This document shows, piece after piece, positions 25,430 to 57,690 of a stretch of DNA of 64,000 bases. The stretch is from positions 14,017,001 through 14,081,000 of the forward strand of contig OX387199.1 of NCBI GenBank assembly GCA_947561715.1, written 5' to 3'. The notes under the pieces were generated by a model, which saw only the letters and a list, made by a program, of their open reading frames with translations, searched no databases and was not told where the DNA came from. Position numbers and translations under genes: made by a program. Within the stretch, counting starts at the first letter, position 1. The number at the start of each line of letters is the position of its first letter. This DNA comes from Ascidia mentula (lineage: Eukaryota; Chordata; Ascidiacea; Phlebobranchia; Ascidiidae).

Positions 25430-26376
25430 TATGAGTGCCCAAAATACGCATTTGCATCTTGTTCTCCGCACCATTGTTTGTGCGAATGAGAACCTTTAAC
25501 TGATCGGCTCGATGCAACCACAACCATCGCTAAAATAAATTTATGGTTTACCTCATATTTTATTTCTCTGCCTATACATACCTTTTTTTCTTTGAGCCAA
25601 ATATTACTAAAGTGCTTCTGCAGTTTTACATTATTTTTCCAGTGTGAGCTGGACTGTAAAAACTGCAATGCTTTTTCGTAGCTTTCTACACATTCTGCAC
25701 TTGCAACATTTCTCATTAGTGCAAGCACTTCGTCCTTATGTTCACCCACATTGTTGTCAGACTTTCTGACCATGCCTGTTCTCGATGAAAATCACAAATA
25801 AGGACATGTGTATCTGGAAGCATATTTTGTTTGTTGAATGTTTGTTAGCTCCTGCAAATTTTACAATGCCCACCTGCAAAAAAACTCTCAATTGCATGTA
25901 TTTCAGCATCACATTTATCAACCATAAAATAGTTTGGTTTCCAAAAAGGTGCCCAAGTTTTTGAAATGGACAATGCCTCCTCAATGTCCAATTGTCGCTC
26001 ATTTTGTGTAATGAAAAAGGAAGAGCATACTTAGATGTTTTGTAGGTAGCATCAAGTAAACAAATATCTTGCCCATAACGAATCAATAAATTGAGTTGCC
26101 AGGCAAACCGGTGTACAAACAACATAGTTTGTTCTGATTTAATTACTGTTGCTGATTCCCCATTATCAACAACATCAGGTTCCTTGCCAGCAATGTAAGG
26201 ACGGAAATATTTTTTTCCATTCATCAACTAAGTTTTGGACATTGGTTTGATCAATCTTTGCCAACCTGTATTTTGCAAAAGCTCGATAGTAGTGGTTTCG
26301 CACATCCTTTGGTCCATCTTCATTTTTAAAGAGTTTATAGGCTACATAGTGTTTCAGGCCTCTCAAAATTTGCTAT
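25430..26376 (-). pseudogene. MULE transposase fragment, reversed copy
   Basis: On the minus strand this repeats the transposase of the MULE at 36786-42056: RGLKHYVAYKLFKNEDGP (about 26310), YFRPYIAGKEPDVVDNGE (about 26190), the DDE-domain block CLLDATYKTSKYALP (about 26050) and VGEHKDEVLALMRN (about 25740). Compared with the better copy it has lost a dozen residues after NEDGP and part of the core after the first catalytic Asp. It ends near 25430 without the SWIM and Ulp1 parts. Frame breaks occur near 26220, 26010 and 25770. It is a dead 5' fragment, and its upstream side includes a putative terminal repeat at 26831-26922. Confidence 0.8.
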
Positions 26377-33402: not shown

Positions 33403-34639
33403 TCATATCTGATTTATTGATGTTTTTTTCTGTAAAACAATAAAAAAATGTGAGAACTTTTCCAATAAAAAACACAAAAACTTCGCAGAATGTTTGTTGC
33501 ACTTACAGTTGTCTGATCATCCTCCTACAAAATACAGAAAATATTAGTCAGCAGAATTATTTGACATACTTCTGCACATTGAGCAGAAACTCCTGGCTTA
33601 TTATCTACAATATTAACACAGTTTAGAATGTTTAACAGTATTGCTTGCTCATAGTGTGTGCATACTGAGAAATACACATTCTATACTTACAAGTCTTGTT
33701 GCATCTTTCTAGAAATAAAAGGAAATCTTATATACTACGCTACAATAATAGGAAAGAATATTCACTCACATTTACTCCTTTCTCTGTCTGACTCGAAAAC
33801 AGAAACAAAACTGATTAGCATTTATAAGCCAATAGCTTAGTACGCTACAATAATAGGAAAGAATATTCACTCACATTTGCACCTTTCTCTGTCTGACTCG
33901 AAAACAGAAACAAAACTGATTAGTATTTATAAACCAATAGCTTAGTACGCTACAATAATAGGAAAGAATATTCACTCACATTTGCTCCTTTCTCTGTCTG
34001 ACATTTGCTCCTTTCTCTGTCTGACTCTGAAACAAAACTGATTAGTAGTTATTAGAAATAGCACACTACATAGACTTACAATAACCAGATTTAAATAGTG
34101 TTTATGCACGTACTAAATTATATAGGTATAAAGATTAGTATTTTTACATTTCTTCTGGGACCCATCTGTAAAAAATTAAATGAGATAAAATTCTTTACTT
34201 GTCAACTTATTTTATATCACACCACTTACTCTGATGTTTTGGGGATCTTGTTTTCACTAAATTAAAAAAAGTGTGTTGGTTGGCAAAACTTTATTCAACT
34301 GTGATTAATTTAGTTACAATACTTTGTTTACGATCTCAGTTGGCTCCCAATATTTCTGGATGTAATGCACTTGCAAACACTTATGGCATTGCGACACACA
34401 ATTTCAAAATCTATCAGGGCAATTACATTATTGGTCACAGAATTGGCTTGTTCATTGACAGCATTTCTTCTAAAAAATTCATTTTTGTACATAACTTGCA
34501 CAGTTTAGGAACCCAATAACAAGACCAACACTTTTCTACATGTTTTTAATGGGCATCATAAAGATTTGGTTAATAAGCGCAACATGTATAACAAGTATCT
34601 TACGATTGCAGCCGGCAAAATTCCTCCTGTTCGAGAAAT
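33403..34639 (-). pseudogene. Micro-exon gene, MULE-associated, copy 1 (truncated 5')
   Basis: This is a paralogue of the gene at 40489-41888 on the same strand. Exon-like units with GT-AG borders, in transcript order: 36 nt (34604-34639, FLEQEEFCRLQ), 18 nt (34148-34165, WVPEE), a set of near-identical 18-nt units (34003-34020, 33980-33997, 33875-33892, 33770-33787), 18 nt (33691-33708), 18 nt (33507-33524, EDDQTT in frame 0) and a terminal 27 nt (33403-33429, ending in a stop). The last two array units lie on a 105-bp period, and two others are separated by only 5 bp without an intron. Phases do not all agree, so this copy is probably decayed. The 5' exons are lost at the junction with a gypsy fragment near 34670. 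Confidence 0.62.
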
Positions 34640-34679
34640 CTATAAAATATATTCAGTTTAGATAATTGTTGGACAGTTA

Positions 34680-35443
34680 AAAAAGTAAAAGCAATCCAGC
34701 AGTTTCCTCGTCCCACAACCAGTAAGGACCTTCAGGAATTCGCGGGTATGATAAATTTCTACCACAGGTTCATACCAAAAGCGACACAACTCGTCTGGAG
34801 CAATCGCCTGACTTTAGCATTTGAAAAAGCGAAGGCAGCATTCGTGCGCACTACGCTTTTACACCACCCTCTGCCTCAAGCGTCACAAACATCGGTCGGA
34901 GCAGTGCTGCAGCAATTCATTGATGGTGTCTGGCGACCGTTAGCTATTTTCAGTAAACGTCTTCGACCACCAGAAGTAAAGTATAGTGCATTTGACCGAG
35001 AACTTCTCGCTTTGCATTTGTCCATCAGAGATTTTCGCTACTTTCTGGAAGGTCGCTGTTTCGCGACTTACACTGACCACAAACCGTTGATTTTTGCCTT
35101 CACAAAAGTTTCCCAACCTTGGTCTGCGCGACAACAACGTCACTTGACCGCCATTTCCGAGTTCATTACCGATGTGCGATACATCAAAGGAAAGCAAAAT
35201 CAGGTCGCAGATGCTCTATCCAGAGCCTCCATTGAATTTCCTTTGGACTTGGATTACTCTGCTTTGGCAACCGCGCAGCTTGATCCGGAAGTTCCAGCAT
35301 ACCGCACGGCTGTGACCAGTCTCTAAAAACGTCCCATGCCCCATTGTACCCAAGTCTTGGCAGCGGAAAATTTTTGAAATTGTGCATGGTTTGTCGCACC
35401 CATCTATTCGAGCCACCCGCCAGCTAGTTGCTTCCAAATTCTG
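34680..35443 (+). pseudogene. gypsy fragment: end of RT, RNase H, start of integrase
   Basis: This fossil piece of a Ty3/gypsy element has the LQEFAGMINFYHRFIP block, RNase H with a DHKPLIFAF motif and RQQRHLTAISEF, and QNQVADALSR, then the first part of an integrase region. The family differs from the young element at 16.5-19.8 kb and is shared with the pieces at 36.1, 50.2 and 58.2 kb. It has no LTR of its own in view and is broken. Confidence 0.8.
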
Positions 35444-36092
35444 ATTGTACATTTTTGTTATTGTTATCTACAAATGTCCATAAATTGAATTACTATGATA
35501 ACTTTATTAAGCCTAACATATCGGTCTCGCCGATCTTGCAACATTCACATCGATCTTACTAGTTTTTCTTTTTTTCGAAGATTGGACGCCAACGATTCTC
35601 CTATTTTGAGTCACTATTAAATAACAGCATTTAACTGAACGGGAAAACTTGATGGCATCATTGTTTGGAATCCCCAACCAAAATAAATTTGTCTGTTTAG
35701 ATGGCTAAATAAACGCAATCGCAAAAAATTTTTTATACAAAATCCATGCAAAAACCTGTCACCACTTGCTTCAACGTTATACCTAAAACTAACCATTGTT
35801 TCCAAACATGGAGCATTGTTACCAAACAATTAGCATTGGTACGAAACAAGTGCCATTTTTCGTTTAAGAGACATAGCAGACTGCAACATGCAAGGTCTTT
35901 TCATGGTTTTGTCGTTATTTGAACATGATGTACGTACAAGAATCCTGTAATCGAAATAAGCCTGGTCGTTCTCATGCGTTAGTTACCAATTACAACGTTT
36001 CTACTATTCGACACGCACGACAATTTTTCTCAAATTGTTCGACACGCAATAAAAAATCGATGCCCTGCTAGCGGGCACAATAATTTTCACTT
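35444..36092. other. No gene; includes a repeat shared with 46862-46912
   Basis: There is no coding signal. The stretch at 35776-35863 contains three degenerate copies of gcattgttaccaaaca. It matches, in reverse orientation, a shorter stretch at 46862-46912 (ctaaaactaaccat...catttttc). Confidence 0.5.
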
Positions 36093-36785
36093 TGTAGCGG
36101 CCTCTCTTATACTACGTTTACCGTTCCCTTTGCGCTCCTATAGCGAACCGGACAGATTGCCTTCTTTCTTTCACTCTCGTGGCTTAATCGCCCATTGTTT
36201 CATTCTATCTTGACGTATCTCAAATAAACACCTCTCTTCATTTGGTAACCCCGAGCGTGCAAAAACGTTATTTTTTGCATTATGACAGAAACCACTAACT
36301 ATTATGTCGTTTCGGCTTTAGATCAGGACACAGCAAAGTGTCTACTCAACCTGCCGGCAATCCGCCCAATGATGACAAATACGAATCAATTAAGGCACGA
36401 TTGATCGACACCTTTTGTTTTTTTTCGCCCTTGCACATGGTACCAAAGTCGTCCGGTGGGTGGCGCCCAGGCGGCGATCACCGCCGCAGTTACCAAGCCT
36501 AATCGTTACGCTATTTCCCATATACAAGACTTTTCCGCTCGCTTGGCCGGATGTCAAGTTTTCTCAAAAATGACCTTGTTTGCGGTTCCTGTGGATGATA
36601 TTGCGAAAACGGCGGTTATCACACCATTTGCCTTGTCGAATTTCTTCGCAAATTCGGCACAAGTCTTTCAGCGACTTATGGACACGGTATGTCAATCCTT
36701 GGACTACCGATGCGCCACAGCATTCCATTGGAACTGTTCTCCAACAATTTATTAACAATGCCTAGCGCCCACTGGCCTTTGCTCC
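36093..36785 (+). mobile_element. gypsy remnant: LTR, primer-binding site, gag start and a piece of RT
   Basis: A 148-bp LTR-like block (TGTAGCGG... to ...CTCTTCA, 36093-36240) is followed at once by TTTGGTAACCCCGAGCGTGC, a good primer-binding candidate. A gag-like start (TETTNYYVVSALDQDTAK, about 36283) comes next. After it lies reverse transcriptase sequence (NRYAISHIQDFSARLAGC, about 36500; DAPQHSIGTVLQQFINNA, about 36700). The element is collapsed to under 0.7 kb and broken. It joins MULE sequence near 36785. Confidence 0.72.
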
Positions 36786-38668
36786 AATTAACCTGCACAT
36801 TTTCAAGGCATCCCCAAATGATGAATTTAGCAAGGTCAAAATAAGCACCATAATTAAAGATCTATTAACAATCAATGATAGAATGTTATTGAAGGAACTG
36901 GCTTGCAGCATTCGCTTTCCGATGGATGCTGATCATTCAGGTCATGTCGTAGGGGAAGTATGTACAAATTTAAAATGCTGTGTGATTAAACACCAAAAAG
37001 TAGTATCTACCTTCCAATTATAAAGGCTGCTGGATTTCTACAACCTATTGATCAAAGGTTAATTACAAAAATTGATGAACTAGTCACCGAAGGAGTAAAC
37101 AGTATTGAGGAAATTTTGAGAGGCCTGAAACACTATGTAGCCCATGAACTCTTTAAAAATGAAGATGGACCAACCCTTTCAAATAGGAGATTTTATCCTA
37201 CTAAAAAGGATGTGCGAAATCACTACTATCGAGCTTTTTCAAAATACAGGTTGGCAAAGATCGATCAAACCAATGTCCAAAACTTAGTTGATGAATGGAA
37301 AAAAAGTGGTGATTCAAATGATAAGATATATTTCCGTCCTTACATTGCTGGCAAGGAACCTGATGTTATTGATAATGGGGAATCAGCAACAGTAATTAAA
37401 TCAGAACGAACTATGTTGTTTGTACACCAGTTTGCCTGGCAACTCAATTTATTGATTCGTTACGGGCAAGATATTTGTTTACTTGATGCTACCTACAAAA
37501 CATCCAAGTATGCCCTTCCTTTATTTTTTCTTTGTGTGAAAACAAATGTTGGTTACCAAGTTGTGGCCAGCTTTATTACACAAAATGAGCGACAATTGGA
37601 CATTGAGGAGGCATTGTCCATTTTAAAAACTTGGGCACCTTCTTGGGAACCAAACTATTTTATGGTTGATAAATGTGATGCTGAAATACATGCTATTGAG
37701 AGTGTTTTTGCAGGTAGGCATTGTAAAATTTGCAGGTGCTAACAAACATTCAACAAACAAAATATGCTTCCAGATACACATGTCCTTATTTGTGATTTCC
37801 ATCGAGAACAGGCATGGGAAAGATGGGTAAGAAAGTCTGACAACAATGTGGGTGAACACAAGGACGAAGTGCTTGCGCTAATGAGAAATGTTGCAAGTGC
37901 AGAATGTGTAGAAAGCTATGAAAAAGCATTGCAGTTTTTACAGTCCAGCTCACACTTGAAAAATAATGTAAAACTGCAGAAGTACTTCAGTAATATTTGG
38001 CTCAAAGAAAAAAAGGTATGTATAGGCAGAGATATAAAATATAAGGTAAACCATAAGGAGAGACAAAATCGTGTTTTCAAAGAATGTCATGTCAGATTTA
38101 GGACTGACAAGTCCCTGTCTGGCCTAATTACTATTTTACATAAGGAATTTTTGCCAAACGGTTGGAACAAGTAAGCTATTGTGTTTTATCACTAGTGCTT
38201 TACCAGAGCTCAATGACAAGACACATTTTGAATAGATACAAACAAGAAAACTTGCGGTCATCAAGCAATTACAGAAGTTACAATGAAAACATTCCCACCT
38301 ATCTACAAAATCGACCAAAAAAGGTGGTGCAACATTGTATTAAACGAATAGGAGAGTCTGTGAATGTTGAGGAAGGTAGAATTTGTAGAATAGGAGACAA
38401 TGTGTTTACTGTAGTGAGCAGTTCCACATGTGAAGTGTACAATGTAAAACTTGGTAGTGGTAGTGAATTTCCAAAATGCACATGCATTGATTTTACACTA
38501 CATTTTTTACCATACAAGCACATGTTTGCAGTTTTTAACAAGTTTTCAGATGTTGGTTGGTATAGCCTACCAGAGTGGTACCACAGCTCAGTGTACATGG
38601 TATTGGATCCTGCTGTTGTGGATCAAATCTCTTCAGGAAACGTTTATCATGATACACAACAACATTAA
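36786..38668 (+). pseudogene. MULE transposase with SWIM-type zinc finger
   Basis: The N-terminal exon begins near 36800 (FSKVKISTIIKDLL) and ends at GGGGAA/gtatgt (36957). The next exon starts at 37026 (AGFLQPIDQRLITKIDEL). The core holds CLLDATYKTSKYALPLFFL (about 37480) with the first catalytic Asp and FMVDKCDAE (about 37662) with the second. An intron (37714-37773) precedes THVLICDFHREQAWERW. The SWIM motif FPKCTCIDFTLHFLPYKHMF (about 38468) has Tyr where the third Cys is expected. A further intron near 38170 and a frame change near 38660 are likely. It would cut and join the element's ends in the nucleus. It looks slightly broken, with one or two lesions. Confidence 0.78.
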
Positions 38669-38671
38669 AAA

Positions 38672-40011
38672 TAACACCTGTCAACAGTACTTCACAAGTT
38701 AATTCAGAAAAAGACACTAAAAGTTGCAAACAAACACATCGGAAATTTGTTGACCTGATCAAATTTTTGTCAGATCTTTCATATGATGTGACTACAGAGC
38801 AAGTATTGGAAAAAGGGTGTTCAGATGTTCAAGCAATTATTTCTGAATTTTCCAAGGCATGTTCCATTGATGCCGGATTGAGAATAACACAATCACCAAA
38901 ATTGACATCCCTGAGAAGAAAAAGAAAAGTACCGACACCTTTACATGGTTCTCATGATGAACTGCCGCGTAAGCGGCCCAAACCAAATCCTTTTGCCTCT
39001 CGTGTTGGAAAGTATGCAAATATGATGCAACCGTTGCACCAAGTTACCACACTCTTACCAATGTGTAAACAGGATAAAATGCAAAAACAAACAACTAAAA
39101 GTTTTAAAAGTAAGTCCTTTTTTTGCAATGCACGTATCATGAAGGAGCCTCAGTGTCCTGAAACCAGCAAAAATCATGGCATAACTGGCTTCATTAAAAT
39201 TTATAATCCCATAAAAAAAGCTTTGCAAAATGGACCTCATTCAAGCTCCTTTTTGGAATTGAAATCACTGGATGACGAATTGCCTGCAGATGAAGTTTGT
39301 GTTTTGCAAAAGCATGACAGCCGATTTCATATTGGTTGGCTTTATGATGAAATCATTAACAGCTACCTATGGCAATTAACTTCCATGTTTGAACACACCA
39401 TATATGCATGTTCAACTGTAGCTCAAGCATTACAAAGAAGAGTGTCAATTACAAACATTTGGAAGGGTGTTAATGTACAGCAAAAACGGCTGATTTTTAT
39501 ACCCTGGAACCCTTCTGGTTGTCATTGGGTACTTTTAGTTGTTCATATTGAAAGAAAAACACTGCTCTACATTGATCCAATGTCAATGCCCTGCAAGGAA
39601 ACAGACGATTATGTTTCCACTGCACGAAAGATGGTTAATTATCTATTAGCTGTCAAGTTTGGTTGGAAAATTGCTTCCGTGGTGACTCCAGAAAGAGAAC
39701 AGCAGCCATATGGATCAAGTTGTGGAGTTATGATTTGCATGTATGCAAAATGGCTAGCATCAGGACAATGCTTACAACAATTTGGTTCTGTTAAAGGGTA
39801 CCGAATGCAAATCTTAAACTTGATTGCTGGCAAATGCCTTACTAATACAACAAAAAAGGATGTGTGCAAATCATGCAAAGATAAAGGTAACGGCTCTTCG
39901 GAACTTGTCTGGATTGAATGCACTCGATGCAAACAATGGTTTCATTTAAAGTGCGTTAACTATTCACTAGAATATGCCAAGAAAGATAAATTCTTTGTTT
40001 GTCCAATGTAA
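38672..40011 (+). CDS. Ulp1 cysteine protease with C-terminal PHD finger (MULE-borne)
   Basis: The frame is open from about 38672 to the stop at 40011. After a basic linker (LRRKRKVPTPLHG, RKRPKPNPF) comes a Ulp1/C48 domain: NPSGCHWVLLVVHIE with the catalytic His (about 39520), LLYIDPMSM with the Asp (about 39570), and EQQPYGSSCGVMICMYA with Gln and nucleophile Cys (about 39700-39730). A PHD-like finger follows: CKSCKDKG, WIECTRCKQWFHLKC, then FFVCPM at the very end, which lacks the last Cys. Ulp1 domains occur in several MULE and CACTA transposons. The frame may belong to the same protein as the transposase upstream. No lesion is seen in this part. Confidence 0.82.
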
Positions 40012-40488
40012 ATACACATATTTTTTGAATGCATAAATCATTCTGTAAGGGCAAAAGCATAGTGGAACGCAAGTGTGATCAACCAGCGAAGACAATCGGA
40101 ACGTTCTGCACAAGGATAAGGTTTATGACAAAATGAAACTTCTCTTGTGTATGAATGTGGTTGACCGTTAAGCCATTACATTGTGATGTGCCTGAACGCT
40201 TAGTGTGGTTACCGACTAGCTAGCATAGGTTTACCTGATGCTAGCTGAACGCTTGTAAAAGTGTGGTTAACCTTAACTTGCTGAGCCCCAACCTTGTAAC
40301 AAATAGTTTATGAAAGACCCAGTTTGATATGGCTATTGGCGAGGCTTCTGGGTTATCAAAAATGACCAACGACCACATGCAGGATGGCTCCCTCAGCCGT
40401 GGTTGGAAATCCTGTGCAAACATAGACTGAATAACACTAACACCTTGTTTATGACTTGCAAATCACAACTTTAGTGCATTAATTTTTT

Positions 40489-41888
40489 TTATTTCTTTTC
40501 TCCATTTTTCTGTGAAACAATAAAAAACTTTAGCAACAGTGTGTGTGCATCAGGATATTTGTTGTACTTACAACGGTCTGATCATCCTCCTACAAAATAC
40601 AGAAAACATTAGTCTGCAGAGTTATTTGCTAAATAAATTTGACATACTTCTGCATATTTTGCAGAAATCCTTGGCAAATTTAACAGGAACAAAACATATT
40701 AAATTAAAACTGATACACAACGTTAGCATAAGACAATATATACTCACATTGTCCTCCTTCTGTACTTGCCTCTGAAACAGGAACAAAACATTTTAAATTA
40801 AAACTGATACACAACGTTATATTAGCATAAGACAATATATACTCACATTGTCCTCCTTCAGTACTTGCCTCTGAAACAGGAACAAAACATATTAAATTAA
40901 AACTGATACACAACGTTAGATTAGCATAAGACAATATATACTCACGTTGTCCTCCTTCTGTACTTGCCTCTGAAACAGGAACAAAACATATTAAATTAAA
41001 ACTGATACACAACGTTAGATTAGCATAAGACAATATATACTCACATTGTCCTCCTTCAGTACTTGCCTCTGAAACAGGAACAAAACATATTAAATTAAAA
41101 CTAATACACAACGTTAGATTAGCATGAGACAATATATACTCACATTGTCCTCCTTCTGTACTTGGCTCTGAAACAGGAACAAAACATCAAATTAAAACTG
41201 ATCGGAATTTAACAGGCAAATCCTTCACAATAAGATTGAACACTTTGCCCTTTAACAGCGTGTAAAGTCTACTTATCAATCAAAAATATTACAGACTAAC
41301 AAAAAAATGATGTTTACAGTACAAAGATTTTTATCTTACAATTCCTCCCAAAAAAATGTCTTCTGGGACCCATCTGTAAAGGAAAAAAAACTGCTTTCCC
41401 TGCCAACTTATGATATGGGACACTACTTACTTTGCTTTCTTTGATATTCTGTTTATTCTATTTTAAAAAAAGTTGTGTTAGTTATTAAGTTGTGAATAGA
41501 ATTTTGTAAAAATAATATATGAAAAGCATCTTACGATTGCAGCCGTTGAAACTCTTCTAACGGAAGAAATCTGTAAAACAGTAAAAATCAAAAAAGGACT
41601 TTGCAAAACTGTTTTCCTACCTTTTGCGGCGCCTTCGGTGCTGTTGCTTCTCACCACCACCGAATTTATAGTGTTGCAACTAATTTTCGTCTCCATCTTT
41701 AAATTAATAAAAAAAAATAATAAATAAAAGCATACTATTACAAACAATTAGTTAGATAGATTAAATTTTTGTTATTATGCCTGGGTGCAAACCGTCAACG
41801 TAAAATCACCCAAACGCATTCGCACGCTGCATAAAAGACTCACGTGATTGCTTTCCCGCCATTCATTGTGTGATGCGGCAACATCCAT
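40489..41888 (-). CDS. Micro-exon gene, 11 coding exons, 110-residue predicted protein
   Basis: In transcript order the exons are 41844-41888 (45 nt, MDVAASHNEWRESNH), 41621-41679 (59 nt, basic, ends RRRRKR), 41535-41570 (36 nt, FLPLEEFQRLQ) and 41340-41373 (34 nt, WVPEDIFLGGI). Then come five 24-nt exons at 41144, 41045, 40946, 40847 and 40748, each coding (S/R)QV(Q/L)KEDN, 40572-40589 (18 nt, EDDQTV) and 40489-40509 (21 nt, KNGEKK and stop). All borders are GT-AG, phases are consistent and the total is 333 nt. The basic run could be a nuclear localisation signal. Start choice rests on phase agreement with exon 2. No family is recognised. It lies convergent to the MULE transposase gene. Function is unknown; the mudrB position is the only analogy. 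Confidence 0.72.
40700..41195. repeat. Tandem repeat, five units of exactly 99 bp, one 24-nt exon per unit
   Basis: The exons start (plus coordinates) at 40748, 40847, 40946, 41045 and 41144, always 99 apart. Units differ by only a few bases. Exon variants alternate between Q and L codons in units 1/3 and 2/4, which suggests duplication of a two-unit block. Introns contain the shared stretch aaaactgatacacaacgtta. Confidence 0.9.
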
Positions 41889-41967
41889 GACATTAGGTAT
41901 GGAAGACATTAGCATTAAGTTATGCAGAAGGCAACTGTTTTAAAATTATTATGTTATTTTACATTGA

Positions 41968-42056
41968 TAATACATGTGTTTGAACAGCAGGTGATTGCTT
42001 TGTTTAATTACCGTTCGCGCTGATTTCTATGGAATTTGCATATCTCGACTAATTCT
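41968..42056. repeat. Putative right terminal repeat of the MULE
   Basis: This stretch matches 26831-26922 in the same orientation, ending in tatctcgactaattct. It is 80 bp upstream of the micro-exon gene's proposed start codon, so it could also carry that gene's promoter, as MULE terminal repeats often do. Confidence 0.6.
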
Positions 42057-42434
42057 GGTGACGGTTCTTTAGCATCTACCGTCTACGTAAGTCTTCTTTT
42101 CTTAAGTTCCCGCCAAACATGTGTGAGAGAGCGAGATGGGAAAAAGGCGACCGAGAGAGAGGTGAGCAAAAGGCGAGTCTTACTTGACTTGTCTACGTAA
42201 GTATTTTTTCCTGCAAACTCATGGTTATATCAATTGAATCCATATTATCAAAAATTTTGAACATTTTTTTTGAACAACTCCAGTCATTAGACGTCACCCT
42301 CTGCAATGTTTCTGGTAATTCTGTTGCAACATAAATTTGCTAAAAAATAACCCAAACCATAGTGGCAGAAAAACTAAATTTAAGTTGAATTATTTTTACA
42401 TTTTTTTTTCTCTACAGTGTTACCTCGTTTTAAC

Positions 42435-42683: not shown

Positions 42684-45608
42684 CACTGTTAAAAAATTTT
42701 ACTGTGAAAACCACTGGCAGCAGTTTTTACATGTTCAACACGTAAAATCTACTGCGACTTTCACCGTAAAAAGGAAAAATTACGTGCTTTTCATTGTAAG
42801 AAATACGCGTATTTTCCAGTACATTTTACTGCTTTTATCACTGTAAAATTTACTTGCTAAACCACTGGCAGCAGTTTTTACCTCAATTGTCCTGGTAATT
42901 TTTACCCCAAAAATAACCGCAAACTGTGCACACAAAAATTGCCAAAAATTTGTTTGTTGAATGACTTTGCAAACCATTAAGTGGTACATGAATGCTGCAA
43001 ACAATGTATTAGCCTGCCGAAGGCCAACACTTTTGGATGTGTTCCTCCTGCACATCGTCGCTTATTGCTTTTGGAACCAGCCTGATTTATTTCAGCAAAG
43101 TATCTGCTCAAAACCAAAATTTACTTTCATGTATTGCAACATTTCCAAAAATTTGTCCGCACCTAAACATATTTTGCATCTTAGTCATAAATAACTGTTG
43201 GCAATACAAAAAAGATTACTCCTATTAAGAGGGATATATATAGTGTTTTTAAATAAAAGAAATTGGTCTTCGCTATATTTAGCATGTCAAAGTTTTCTTC
43301 CCAAAGTCACATATAGCTATTGACTATAGTGAGACTTGGTCTGGCCATAAAAAACCACCAATACAACATTATTTAATATTTAACAATTTAGAGTAGCAAG
43401 AGCTCACAAACCGTTGAATAAATTCCATTGTTGCTGCTGCCTTTTCTGGGTATTGTATGTTAAATACATAGAATGAACAAAAAAGACCGGAGAATGCAGT
43501 AAAAAACTCACTGCATTGAAAAACCAAACTCCTCTCTATAATCAGTGAATAACAGCTGTATGATGCTGGTGTACTACCTAGAATTGAAAAGGAAAACACA
43601 TTATTATACCCAAACCACTAAAATCCAACCAAAAAATGTAATACCTGTTGCAATTATAAACGGATTGGGATCACCATTCTCAATCGTCTCTTGCAGTAGC
43701 AAGTTATCCTGTCAAGAACATTTAGGTGCATAAGCATTCAGAGGCCTAAAAATGCATACTGATCACTTACTTGGGTGCATTTTAAAACAGTTGAGGCATC
43801 TTCTTTGAAATAACTTCCCAGAAGTTCCAAAATTGAAGTGGACTTTGGAGTTTTATTTCCTATTGTTTTGCATTCAAGCCTAATCTCTTTAATGCAAGCA
43901 GCAACAGATGGTTTTGCCAGCTCTGCAAAACATGCGGTTTACCTAACAAGCATGTATTACTTGTATGTGTGATAGCTGCGATTGGTCATTCTCACAGGAA
44001 TTTCCTTTGGGTGATAACTTAAAGCCATAAGTTGACCATAGTGTTGCATGAGACATTGTGAGGTTGCCAAGAATGGCCATTTTTTAAAAATTTCGCTTAC
44101 TCTGGCATTGGTGTTGATGTCTTTTCGTTGTTTTGTAAAGGTACTCTTCATTTGTTCCATCACTTCTTTCATGTTTCTTTCTTTTTTGGTAAATTCCTCT
44201 TGGAGCCATTTTTGAAATATGGTATCATTTTCATAACCACTACTGCTTGTAGAGGGTTCTGTGGAAATCTGATCTTCAAATTCACACAATTTTCTCTTTT
44301 TTCTCATCACATTTTCCCAGCGATAAATAACTGGTTTGAAACTGAATTATGGCCATTTTCTATTGGTACACTATCTACCACATTCTAAACATTGAATGGT
44401 TGCTGGGGAACACCGTTGCCAAGGGATTGTGAAGTCATAAATCCATTGCAATGATGTATTTGCTTCGACACTGCTAAATCTGGAGTCTAGCGGTTCCGTC
44501 GAAAATCCAGATCTTGATGAAACTTTGAAAAAAACAATTGTGTACAACATTAAATACATATGACTGGTATAACGCTATGCAAAAAATTTACACAAAATAC
44601 CTGGTTCTATATTAGGTGCTTTAAGCAGCTTTCTTGCCTGCACTAGGGTGAATTGTATCAGCAGGTCCTCTAATTCAAGGTGTCTGAAGTCATGAAGTTC
44701 ACGGACACCAAGTGTATGTAAGTGTGAAACACACTCATCAAGTTTTGCTGGGTTATCAATCAGTTCAGGTAAAAGTTTAGTTACAAGATCTTCAATTTTT
44801 ATGCATATAACTGACCTAAACACAAATGCATTCCTTTAAAACAACCATTTGTTTTAGTCCCACTCCATATACATATAGTGGACATTTGTGCAACAGATCA
44901 TCAATGCAAATACATTTAAAGGAACCATCTTCATGTTGGACTTCATACACACCATATTGTGGCAAAAAAAAAAGAAATTTGGGGTACACAACAAAATACA
45001 GTTTGGATTCTACAATACATATTGCCTGAATATCACCAACTTGTAAGTCATACCCAAATTTGGACAAAACAACAAGCATACCTTGAAACTTGGCAGAAGT
45101 TAACATATCACAGTTAAATACATCAAAACCAACACTTTGGATTACGCCCATTATTACACTAGAAAAAGTTGTTGGTAAAACACGTTAAACACACACAAAA
45201 GCCTTACTTATAGGCGTATAAAACAAATCCATTATTTCAACAAATTAATTATTAATTAAAAAACAAATCAGTTCTGTAATACTTACCTCTACTGGTATCT
45301 TTCACAGCTTTTGATGACAAGTGCAAGCTTTTAACATGATTTCGTTGTATACTTTTACGCAATTATTTTCTAAAATTAAGCAAACAAGACAATTTAGACA
45401 CATTTTTATCAAGCAGACTCCCTTACCTCGCAGACAACTGTTTACAGTAACTTCTTCGCGAAAAAAAGAGAAAAAATAATTTGGGCGACTCTGCTGATTG
45501 GCTGTCGAGAAAACCTCGCCGTTTTTACGGAAGCATGCACGTAAACGATTTTACAGGAAAAATATACGCGACCGCACACAGTAACTTTTACGCATAATTT
45601 TAACAGTG
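42684..45608. mobile_element. CACTA-like (EnSpm) transposon, 2925 bp, CACTG ends, TG target duplication
   Basis: The ends CACTGTTAAAA (42684) and TTTTAACAGTG (to 45608) are perfect 11-bp inverted repeats. The 2-bp direct repeat TG (42682-42683 and 45609-45610) flanks them. Removing the element and one TG restores an uninterrupted HNH reading frame, which fixes both ends to the base. CACTA/CACTG ends with a 2-3-bp duplication define the CACTA superfamily. Motifs such as gtaaaa and actggcagcag recur near the ends. The only gene inside is the minus-strand multi-exon gene; no transposase is present, so it would depend on a related element such as the one at 58749. Confidence 0.85.
43369..45232 (-). 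CDS. Multi-exon gene with SAM-like domain, cargo of the CACTG element
   Basis: Approximate exons (minus): 45208-45232 (MDLFYTPI, doubtful), 44826-45151 (VGDIQAICIVESKLYFVVYP), 44601-44815 with a SAM-like block (LHTLGVRELHDFRHLELEDL then QARKLLKA), 44355-44522, 43961-44313 (KKRKLCEFEDQ; SEIFKKWPFLATSQCLMQHY), 43771-43922, 43645-43708 (DNLLLQETIENGDPNPFIIA) and 43369-43577 (EFFTAFSGLFCSFYVFNIQY, stop). The blocks KKWPFL, GDPNP..I and A..LF..FYVFN..YP fit a multi-copy family of uncharacterised animal proteins I remember from fish genomes. SAM domains mediate protein-protein or RNA contacts. It may be the second (TNPA-like) gene of animal CACTA elements. One or two exon borders are uncertain. Confidence 0.6.
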
Positions 45609-55460: not shown

Positions 55461-57690
55461 CTAGGGTTTGGAAAATATGATAACATTTTTATAATTAAAT
55501 TTGACAAAAAAAAAAGATATATCATTTGATGCACCATCAACAGTTTTCCTTACACACTCTGTGTGGAACCATTGTTTGCCTCTTGTACATTCAGCCCAAA
55601 GAGTCTTGGAATTATCATTGCAAAACTTGCACAAGTCTCTTTTGGGTTTACGATTTAGCCAGTTCCCTGCAATTGTATCAAATATTTCTTTGCGGTACGA
55701 GTATACAGAACCTTTTTGTTCAAGGCTTGTTGCCATAGCAAGCCACTTGGCATACATGCAAACAAAAACTCCACAACTGTCAGAATCAGGTTGGTGTACT
55801 CGTTTTGGGGATTCCACCGATTCAAGCTGAAATTTAGATTTTTCTGACAGCAAATGGTTGACGATTGATTTTGCCATAGAAACACCTTCCACATAGTCAA
55901 CACACAAGAATTTCCTTTTTCAAATGTTGACAGCAAAAAAAATCCAATGTCTTTGAGATGAACTCTTGATCTTTACGTTTTAACATCGCTTTTTCACTGT
56001 CAGGTAAAACAAGTTCAACTGTTTTTTGATCCAACATACAGAGGGGTTATCATATTTGTGGCTTGCACCTTTTTTTATATGTTTGCAATATAGGCTGGGT
56101 GTAACAAAGTCATCATCCGTGTGTTCTACAATAAATGTCTTGTTTTGATTTTGGTTTCAATCCTGTTGCAGGGAACAAGGTTTTGACTTGGTGGAAAGGT
56201 CTCATGAAGTTTGCCATAGCACCAACTCTTGAAGTAAATGAATTTGGTTTTGGTTGCTTTCTGGGCAGCCCATCATTTTTCGATAGTGGATATGATGGTC
56301 TTTTTCTTTTGAGGTTTGACTTATTCTAAAACTGCCATCGAACGAACATGCCTTCTAAAAATTCGATAACCATGTTTGAATATTTTCAGCCGCCTTGTCC
56401 AAAACAACATACTTCTATTTTTGGACGGAACACTGTTTTCTTCATAATCATGTGAATGTGTTGGTTTGTCAAATGGCTTAATTGCAGGTTCATCCATTTT
56501 CTTTGAGGCTTGTTGAACAGATAGTTGACCAACAATTTCTGGATCCAGTATCATGTGTACTGAACTGTGGTACCATGCAGGTAGACTATACTAGTCCACA
56601 TCATTGTTCTTTGTAAAAACAGCAAACATGTACTTGCAAGGGAAAAAATACCTTGTAAAATATGCACATGTGCATTTGGGAAAAGCAGCAGTTCCTCCGA
56701 AATTTTTGAAATAAATCTCATCCTTTGATCAACTTTTTATCGAAAAACATTTCCATTCCTTTCAATTATACTTGCTGTAACATTCGATGATTCCCCAATT
56801 CGCTGCATGCAATGCTTTTCTATTTTTCGAGGTCGGTTTTGAAGGAAGAGGGGAACAAAGTCACTGTAGCTTCGATAGTGACTTGAGGGAGGATCTCATA
56901 TTTTCTTGTTGATACCTAAAATGACAAGTGTAACCTATTTGCTAATGATTGGAAACATTTACAAATACACACAGTGTAATTTAAACTTACTTAGGTTATG
57001 TAAAACAGTTGTAGATGTATGCTGCATAAATACTGTGTTAAACCTCATTTCTTACTTCTTTTTCTGCCAACCAAACATTAGTGAAATATTTGTGAAGCCT
57101 TTTTTATCAGTGATAATATCATCTAGCATTAATGTCTATTTAACCTTTTGATACCCAACGTTTGTCTTCACACAAACAAAGGCAGTGCATATTTAGATGT
57201 TTTATACATGGCATCCAGAAGGCAAATGTTTTGACCATAACGCAGTAGAAGTCTGCGCTGCCAAGCAAATTTATGGACAAAGCATGGTTTGTTCATGTGG
57301 ATTATCTCGACATTTTTCAGCATCGGAATTTTCATTCCAACCAACACCGGCTTTATATGGTCGAAACAAAATATTGTCACCCTTCTCTGCATTTTTTTGT
57401 CCATTCATCAACTAGGCATTAGACATTTGTTTGATCGAATTTGGAGAGTCTTTGCCTAGTTACGGCTTTATGATGATGCGATTGAATGTCTTTTTTAATT
57501 GGAAAGAATTGCCTGTTAGTTGGTGCTGGTTTACTACTATTTTTAAAGAGTTCACGAATGACATAATGTTTGAGATGCCGCGTAATTTCGTCAACAGAAC
57601 GGACACCTTCCGATACGATTTCATCAATTTTCTCGATCAATTGTTTATCAACTGGTTGCAAGAATCCAGCTTCCTGAAATAAGATATATC
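55461..57690 (-). pseudogene. MULE transposase-SWIM-Ulp1-PHD gene, third copy, reversed and decayed
   Basis: In transcript order the blocks are AGFLQPVDKQLIEKIDEI (about 57660), LKHYVIRELFKNSSKP, then the core CLLDAMYKTSKYALP (about 57215). The SWIM motif follows (FPKCTCAYFTRYFFPCKYMF, about 56640), here with Tyr in place of the last His, and LPAWYHSSVHMILDPEIV. The Ulp1 end is HQPDSDSCGVFVCMYAKWL (about 55760-55805) and the PHD-like finger is CKFCND...WAECTRGKQWFHTEC (about 55570-55620), with Gly at one Cys. It is diverged from the 37-40 kb copy and has many breaks, so it is an older subfamily. The micro-exon copy at 55144-55334 lies at its 3' end. Confidence 0.75.

Follow-up and report, generated by a model that had tools for sequence, protein, structure and literature searches.

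The minus strand of positions 40489 to 41888 of the window (the whole stretch of 64,000 nucleotides of Ascidia mentula DNA that was analysed) carries a predicted gene of very short exons, which is probably the accessory second gene of a family of Mutator-like elements (MULEs), antisense to and converging on the gene for transposase, Ulp1 protease and PHD finger. As far as DNA can show, this gene appears to be both real and unusual. On our best reading, which proceeds by analogy, it would be placed like mudrB of maize and, like VANC of Arabidopsis, would encode a conserved core with a tandem peptide array, here in symmetric micro-exons; the element's own accessory gene would itself be a micro-exon gene. 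The preliminary description had placed a micro-exon gene inside a DNA transposon, and this placement has good support from the MULE domain PF10551, from terminal inverted repeats and 9-bp duplications in relatives, from conserved phases and borders, and from constraint that is specific to the predicted frame.

The MULE and its probable second gene in the window

The element belongs to family A, the family defined as including the window copy, and its left edge at 36780 is the extent of blastn matches to other copies. The terminal motif at its right end has 0.04 expected chance matches at three mismatches, and PF10551 is over cut-off (E 4.3e-11) on the open reading frame at 36990-37742. The features of the element and of a second gene copy in the window are:

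36780..42080, no strand assigned: family-A MULE copy that lacks its left end; the right end GGTAGATGCTAAAGAACC is intact at 42063-42080 on the minus strand
36990..38668, plus strand: transposase gene fragments with a broken frame; MULE domain PF10551 in 36990-37742
38653..40011, plus strand: C-terminal part of the transposase gene, with Ulp1 protease (PF02902) and PHD finger (PF00628)
33403..34639, minus strand: second, decayed gene copy, of family B (W33), with exon 3, exon 4, a broken exon 5, an array at 33736-34025, 18-nt exons and the last exon

The transposase-Ulp1-PHD gene and the micro-exon gene lie on opposite strands and converge, their stops being 477 bp apart in the window. The C-terminal transposase frame is a single frame of 608 amino acids in the relatives L30x and L025, and the last frame in family B has 608 or 606 codons. 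In family B two complete elements are available: L30x (C1:18867119-18875384) is 8266 bp long, with 293-bp inverted repeats that are 99.3% identical and the duplication ATACTTTTG, and L33x is 7806 bp long, with 293-bp inverted repeats that are 99.0% identical and the duplication TTCATACAT. In both, the micro-exon gene sits between the terminal inverted repeats and is convergent with the transposase gene. Identical 9-bp flanks were seen in six of the seven copies with both ends located, the seventh (L023) having one degenerate end. Target duplications of 8-11 bp outside the terminal repeats, by which membership of the MULE superfamily is judged, are therefore found in relatives of the window copy, which itself has no left end. 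The leader stretch of the gene lies inside the terminal repeat in family B, and so is present at both ends; in family A this position could not be shown.

The neighbourhood of the element contains other mobile DNA. Gypsy-like open frames occupy 34646-36780, the interval that separates the two MULE copies and at which the window element has lost its left end; the sequence left of about 36780 is judged to be gypsy-like from these open frames. Two further MULE fragments, with transposase on the minus strand, lie at 25541-26374 and 55564-57670, and the tandem repeats listed for the window include none of about 100 bp next to either. The stretch 42684-45608, bounded by CACTGTTAAAA and TTTTAACAGTG as read by eye, is possibly another DNA transposon beside the MULE. 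Elsewhere in the genome, a cellulose synthase match (C71:8044065-8044532, E 7.8e-5) has a glycosyl hydrolase 6 match (E 9.2e-6) 2.3 kb downstream on its own strand, and C52 contains another glycosyl hydrolase 6 match; fusion of these domains is a mark of tunicates, with which the matches, although weak, agree.

For the gene itself, eleven minus-strand segments had been proposed (45, 59, 36, 34, five of 24, 18 and 21 nt). These sum to 333 nt and join into a single frame of 110 codons and a stop that contains RRRRKR; the lengths, the frame and the basic run were all reproduced, while one border of exon 2 proved wrong, a 27-nt exon had been missed and exon 1 became doubtful. Comparison with other copies places the start of the conserved exon 2 at the ATG at 41696 (AAAG/ATGGAG). 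The acceptor at 41679 adopted previously was rejected, as L009 has no AG there and conservation falls on the upstream ATG exon. Exon 2 measures 101 nt in L009, 95 in L010, 91 in L011 and 76 in the window copy; the last of these lengths shifts the frame, for which the acceptor at 41679 happens to compensate. The frame described as open from ATG to stop is thus open as joined but frameshifted once exon 2 is corrected, so the window copy is probably decayed, not intact. Its corrected exons translate as METKISCNTINSVVVRSNSTEGAAKDFFR, ending in a stop. The overlooked 27-nt exon lies at 41457-41431. Exon 1 is probably an untranslated leader; it is doubtful as the start-codon exon because its ATG is absent from family B, where the stretch sits within the terminal inverted repeat, yet the ATG is in frame with exon 2 in the family A copies L009 and L010. 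The corrected gene model, all on the minus strand, is:

41844..41888, minus strand: exon 1, 45 nt, probable untranslated leader; stretch kept in copies of A, B and the F type, without the ATG in B
41621..41696, minus strand: exon 2, probable start ATG, 76 nt, frameshifted; 101 nt in L009
41535..41570, minus strand: exon 3, 36 nt, core FLPLEEFQRLQS; equal length in families A, B, E and F
41431..41457, minus strand: exon 4, 27 nt; equal length in A, B, E and F
41340..41373, minus strand: exon 5, 34 nt, WVPEDIFLGGI; 34 nt in A, B and F, 31 in E with phase unchanged
41144..41167, minus strand: micro-exon 1, 24 nt
41045..41068, minus strand: micro-exon 2, 24 nt
40946..40969, minus strand: micro-exon 3, 24 nt
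40847..40870, minus strand: micro-exon 4, 24 nt
40748..40771, minus strand: micro-exon 5, 24 nt
40572..40589, minus strand: exon 11, 18 nt, EDDQTV; counterpart in copies of families A, B and C
40489..40509, minus strand: last exon, 21 nt, KNGEKK and stop

Each micro-exon belongs to one unit of a 99-bp tandem array. Chance readily supplies exons of 12-60 nt with decent splice sites; nine with good sites were observed in the window copy against a mean of 1.3 and a maximum of 6 in 300 shuffles. The 24-nt cassettes with strong sites are another matter: five were observed against a mean of 0.022 in 1000 dinucleotide shuffles, none of which held more than one, and the five are therefore far from chance.

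Copies, relatives and constraint on the predicted frame

The interval gave 42 matches when used as a query against the genome, and 20 regions around matches, later 14 more, were examined. Family B includes L025, L030-L034 and the decayed window copy W33. The copies share a common exon plan, in which a leader and an ATG exon precede exons of 36, 27 and 34 nt, a variable number of 24-nt exons, an 18-nt exon and the last exon; family B adds a 20-nt exon after the ATG exon and an extra 18-nt exon after the array. Of the 11 copies annotated in family A, L009 alone has a frame that runs unbroken between the ATG exon and the stop, across 8 micro-exons; the remaining 10, the window copy included, have a broken frame, or exons that are absent, incomplete or could not be placed. 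The seven annotated copies of family B include three that are fully open (L025, L030 and L033, with 21, 8 and 3 micro-exons), two that are open to their early end at the far terminal repeat (L031 and L032) and two with broken frames (L034 and W33). Complete open frames are therefore present in 4 of 18 annotated copies (8, 21, 8 and 3 micro-exons), the other 14 being incomplete.

The predicted product of family A, taken from L009, reads METKITCNTINSVVVHHHHQPQQQQQHHRRRRKRFLPFEEFERLQSINRISKKAKWVPEDIFLGGI, then repeats of RQVEKEDD or RQVQKEDN, then EDDQTVKNGEKK; that of family B, from L030, reads MEFNFNSVQSVVVNHHHHHHHQQQPKKKFATRKRFLEKEEFCRLQSENKIPKTSEWVPEEIFWKRH, then repeats such as SQTEKGAS, then KDATRPEDDQTTKKTSINQI. 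The exons of L030 comprise the array of eight 24-nt exons and exons of 36, 27, 34, 20, 18, 18 and 27 nt, against a single one of 81 nt. This copy accordingly has the architecture of a micro-exon gene, with mainly symmetric exons of at most 36 nt; the 20- and 34-nt exons are not symmetric individually.

Some copies show derived structures. L031 and L032 are internally deleted B elements of 2272 and 2049 bp with perfect 9-bp duplications; they retain the beginning of the micro-exon gene, with 6 and 4 micro-exons respectively, and are too short for the transposase gene. In W33 (33736-34025) two micro-exons are fused into a 47-nt segment with the intron gone, a feature common to L034. RNA-mediated intron loss was considered for this fused exon and rejected, the junction being one base short of an exact exon-exon joint; a deletion at a shared GT would account for the joint, which was not counted as evidence of splicing.

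From exon 3 on, families A and B differ at 47 of 141 positions, and 27 of 47 residues are identical. Random placement of these changes would leave 19.1 identical on average (P 0.0007 in the predicted frame and 0.0003 in the reverse direction, against 0.55 and 0.52 in the off-frames). Only the predicted frame tolerates the substitutions that separate A from B. The NG86 omega is 0.25 from exon 3 on, and 0.23 when exon 2, aligned without gaps, is added; off frame it is 0.99 and 1.24. The comparison of synonymous and nonsynonymous change among other copies of the same genome, proposed as a check in the preliminary description, thus gives constraint in the predicted frame alone, and the conservation of phases and borders on which that description had made its gene depend is seen among the copies at the level of DNA.

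Pairwise tests of the core in the four families A, B, E and F, scored by identities, give P values of 0.0015 for A-B, 0.0017 for B-E, 0.00005 for B-F, 0.039 for A-E, 0.12 for A-F and 0.33 for E-F. Scored by BLOSUM, the six pairs, which are not independent, give P values of 0.00005-0.0173 in the first direction and 0.00005-0.0174 in the reverse; A-F and E-F reach 0.007 and 0.017. At the nucleotide level, a permissive-gap alignment of A and B that yields rough identities over gap-free columns puts introns 4 and 11 at 0.84 (above 30 shuffles) and exon 4 at 0.56. Exon identity between A and B is not above that of the alignable introns, and exon-versus-intron conservation, which fails as a coding test at this distance, was not used as support.

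The gene extends to deeper relatives. A query with the 608-residue part of the transposase found at least 86 matches (72 of 225 candidates scored), and downstream regions were read for six related elements (L038, L039, L040, L041, L042 and L043). In L041 (family E), whose transposase is 49% identical, a 135-nt ATG exon is followed by exons of 23, 36, 27, 31 and 27 nt and then by an array of ten 24-nt exons and one of 23 nt, the sequence of which differs (for example IDKAKVPE), as do its introns. In L042 (family F; transposase 67% identical) there are 36-, 27- and 34-nt exons and one 24-nt exon. Exon lengths and phases are therefore kept over four families (36, 27, 34 or 31, n x 24 nt in phase 0, and short end exons), and the residues L, F, L, Q, N, W and F of the core are invariant over A, B, E and F in an alignment whose F row starts at the core. 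Exon 2 and the following 20-23-nt exon are poorly conserved between families, and in the F copy the latter misfits the frame.

A scan for the 36-nt exon and the exon starting with ATGG, each with its core motif, recovered both core exons on the gene strand in all six loci known to carry them (the window copy W40, L009, L025, L30x, L041 and L042). It also gave one stray opposite-strand match in each of L009 and L027, and in L027 the 34-nt exon is kept as the sole core exon found. The same scan found neither core exon in L038, L039, L040 and L043, where strongly diverged exons could be missed; with four of the six related elements showing no sign of it, the gene is not universal in this MULE group. 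L039 (1-3501) and L043 (1-4101) belong to a related MULE family, with a transposase about 57% identical and a 57-bp tandem array of about 26 and about 19 copies. This array has one frame with few stops (5 and 4 across the array), and no micro-exon signals were found in it.

The gene could instead be a captured fragment of a host gene, as in Pack-MULEs. MULEs often capture host sequence, which lends this origin some weight. However, the gene accompanies transposases down to 49% identity and is for that reason an old part of the lineage, and whole-gene and joined-exon DNA searches, with the best candidates scored and some places inspected, disclosed no clear host gene with this structure. We regard capture as highly improbable.

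The array of 24-nt exons

To be counted as an array exon, a 24-nt cassette had to have an AG acceptor and a good donor and to agree with one of the types at 18 or more of its 24 positions; by construction this filter leaves out units of odd length or strong decay. The array introns are mostly 75-81 nt long. In family B the array numbers 21 exons in L025, 8 in L030, 6 in L031, 4 in L032 and 3 in L033, and between near-identical copies the number changes (3, 8, 21) with the frame unbroken. L30x and L025 align over 6.1 kb with 99.4% identity, yet have 8 and 21 such exons; this pair constitutes a natural experiment in 24-nt exon number.

Alternatively, the array could be a mere minisatellite beside the 3' terminal repeat, its splice sites and frame being products of chance or relics. 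MULE minisatellites at that position are published, in one group together with a PHD finger (PMC6446971), the array introns of family B are nearly identical (pi 0.005), and the family of L039 and L043 has its 57-bp array near the element's end. Against this, the unique exons outside the array (36, 27 and 34/31 nt) keep length and phase in four families, the constraint is specific to one frame, no shuffled sequence holds more than one of the cassettes, and full open frames exist at 21, 8 and 3 units. It is thus very improbable that the array is no more than a minisatellite, and an accessory gene of the MULE remains our preferred reading.

Variation within the array has an unusual distribution. 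Across 42 micro-exons and 37 introns of family B, diversity is 0.068 in exons and 0.005 in introns (about 13-fold); 4 of 24 exon sites vary, all of them changing the amino acid, and 4 of 81 intron columns vary, rarely. In family A (38 exons and 27 introns) the values are 0.098 and 0.054. Exons varying more than introns is the reverse of simple constraint and may reflect diversifying selection, although four variable sites are too few to call it, and the case for positive selection in the array is suggestive only.

Another reading is that the tandem unit would matter as DNA, the intron-exon block being a binding site of an element protein and the protein array secondary or co-evolving. VANC binds short motifs in tandem repeats, also within introns of VANDAL genes (PMC5735166), and the B array introns are far more uniform than the exons. 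Unequal exchange alone can yield such uniformity, however; no obvious motif common to the A, B and E units was seen by eye, and the coding constraint outside the array is a separate matter. A role chiefly as DNA therefore seems improbable to us.

It had also been suggested that short symmetric exons could let the element make protein variants by exon skipping. This is possible because the 24-nt exons are in phase 0. Taken further, the array could serve chiefly to diversify RNA, as proposed for the micro-exon genes of schistosomes, with variants evading a host factor. Every counted array exon is symmetric, and the four variable exon sites of family B and the excess of exon over intron diversity would suit such a purpose; but four sites do not suffice to test positive selection, the four intron columns that vary do so rarely but are there too, and changes of repeat number in DNA already supply variants. 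What differs in DNA between closely related copies is the number of exons (3 to 21). We consider this diversifying role unlikely as the chief one. For splicing biology, the predicted gene is a candidate case in which 21 exons of 24 nt follow one another, separated by introns of about 80 nt.

Predicted product and comparison with known systems

Splicing of the micro-exon gene is inferred from DNA; no processed copy of the family A or family B gene turned up among the 8 candidates scored in each of two DNA searches. Transcription would start in or near the terminal repeat, the leader exon would be joined to the ATG exon and every intron removed. The product would be a small basic protein, with an N terminus predicted to be polar and rich in H and Q. 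Besides a basic run it would contain a conserved core, some 33 residues long and reading roughly RFLxxxEFxRLQSxNKIPKTAxWVPEEIF, and its tail would consist of charged octapeptides. Exon plus intron would be the unit of change, so that unequal exchange would add or remove octapeptides with the frame intact, and exon skipping could do likewise in RNA.

The products of families A and B match no Pfam family over cut-off, and the family A core gave no convincing match in the PDB (two hits, at E 0.24 and 0.3, have chain names that suggest designed coiled coils); a function can consequently be proposed only by inference. The suggestion that the product acts in the nucleus fits the basic run. By analogy with MURB and VANC, its likeliest role would be to act in the nucleus as an accessory to transposition or to help the element escape silencing.

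The gene mudrB is a second gene of the MULE MuDR, convergent with the transposase gene and with a product of unknown function; MuDR has promoters in its terminal repeats, and both convergent genes are alternatively spliced (PMC3440606). It is apparently required for integration (PMC6446971) and, in the available text of one source, is reported from Zea only (PMC3276141). The likeness to mudrB is one of layout, a convergent second gene between terminal repeats in L30x and L33x, and the difference is the micro-exon array, which the available accounts of mudrB do not describe. VANC is an anti-silencing protein of the VANDAL MULEs of Arabidopsis whose function has been tested; it combines conserved domains, DUF1985/DUF287, with variable tandem peptide motifs, and differences in its gene structure are tied to the formation of tandem repeats (PMC5735166). 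The present gene resembles it in having a conserved core and a tandem peptide array with repeat-associated changes of exons and introns, and differs in that its product has no Pfam match to DUF1985 or DUF287 at E 0.1 and in its 24-nt exons, of which the available text on VANC makes no mention. The elements described here have 293-bp terminal inverted repeats, whereas many VANDALs have none.

The micro-exon genes (MEGs) of schistosomes consist mainly of symmetric exons of at most 36 bp that can be skipped without loss of frame; they are worm genes with signal peptides, enriched near transposons and not carried by one (PMC8293314). In its available text, that review discusses micro-exon genes separately from Mutator-like elements and describes a single micro-exon that was duplicated next to a retrotransposon (PMC8293314). 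The gene described here shares the preponderance of symmetric exons of at most 36 nt, but it belongs to a transposon, most introns of its array measure 75-81 nt and its 24-nt exons are near-identical tandem copies. In the literature searched, which lay mostly outside subscription papers and Repbase, we found no micro-exon gene joined with a transposon's own accessory gene; an arthropod MULE survey, in its available text, mentions exons once and introns never (PMC13359780).

The closest parallels to the position of the array are Rehavkus and the Phantom MULEs of aphids, whose minisatellite precedes the 3' repeat or follows the transposase gene; Tunicata also have Phantom elements (PMC6446971). 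Likenesses include the 9-bp duplications, the long terminal repeats, the PHD finger (for Rehavkus) and the position of the tandem array, and the difference is the convergent micro-exon gene, which is not described in the available text (PMC6446971). In this comparison of features, not phylogeny, the window element has the PHD finger PF00628, and the tandem array before the 3' repeat reads as exons. Minisatellites of other MULEs that were not read as genes may conceal such genes, a claim that can be tested. A broader conjecture, which we hold only tentatively and consider unlikely in full, is that the tandem arrays which many animal MULEs have close to their 3' end, hitherto catalogued as minisatellites, are in part hidden micro-exon genes, in which each unit would add one octapeptide to a nuclear accessory protein and the array would quickly change the length and sequence of that protein by unequal exchange and exon skipping, possibly as one side of an arms race against silencing by the host, in much the way that VANC and the repeats it targets change in Arabidopsis.
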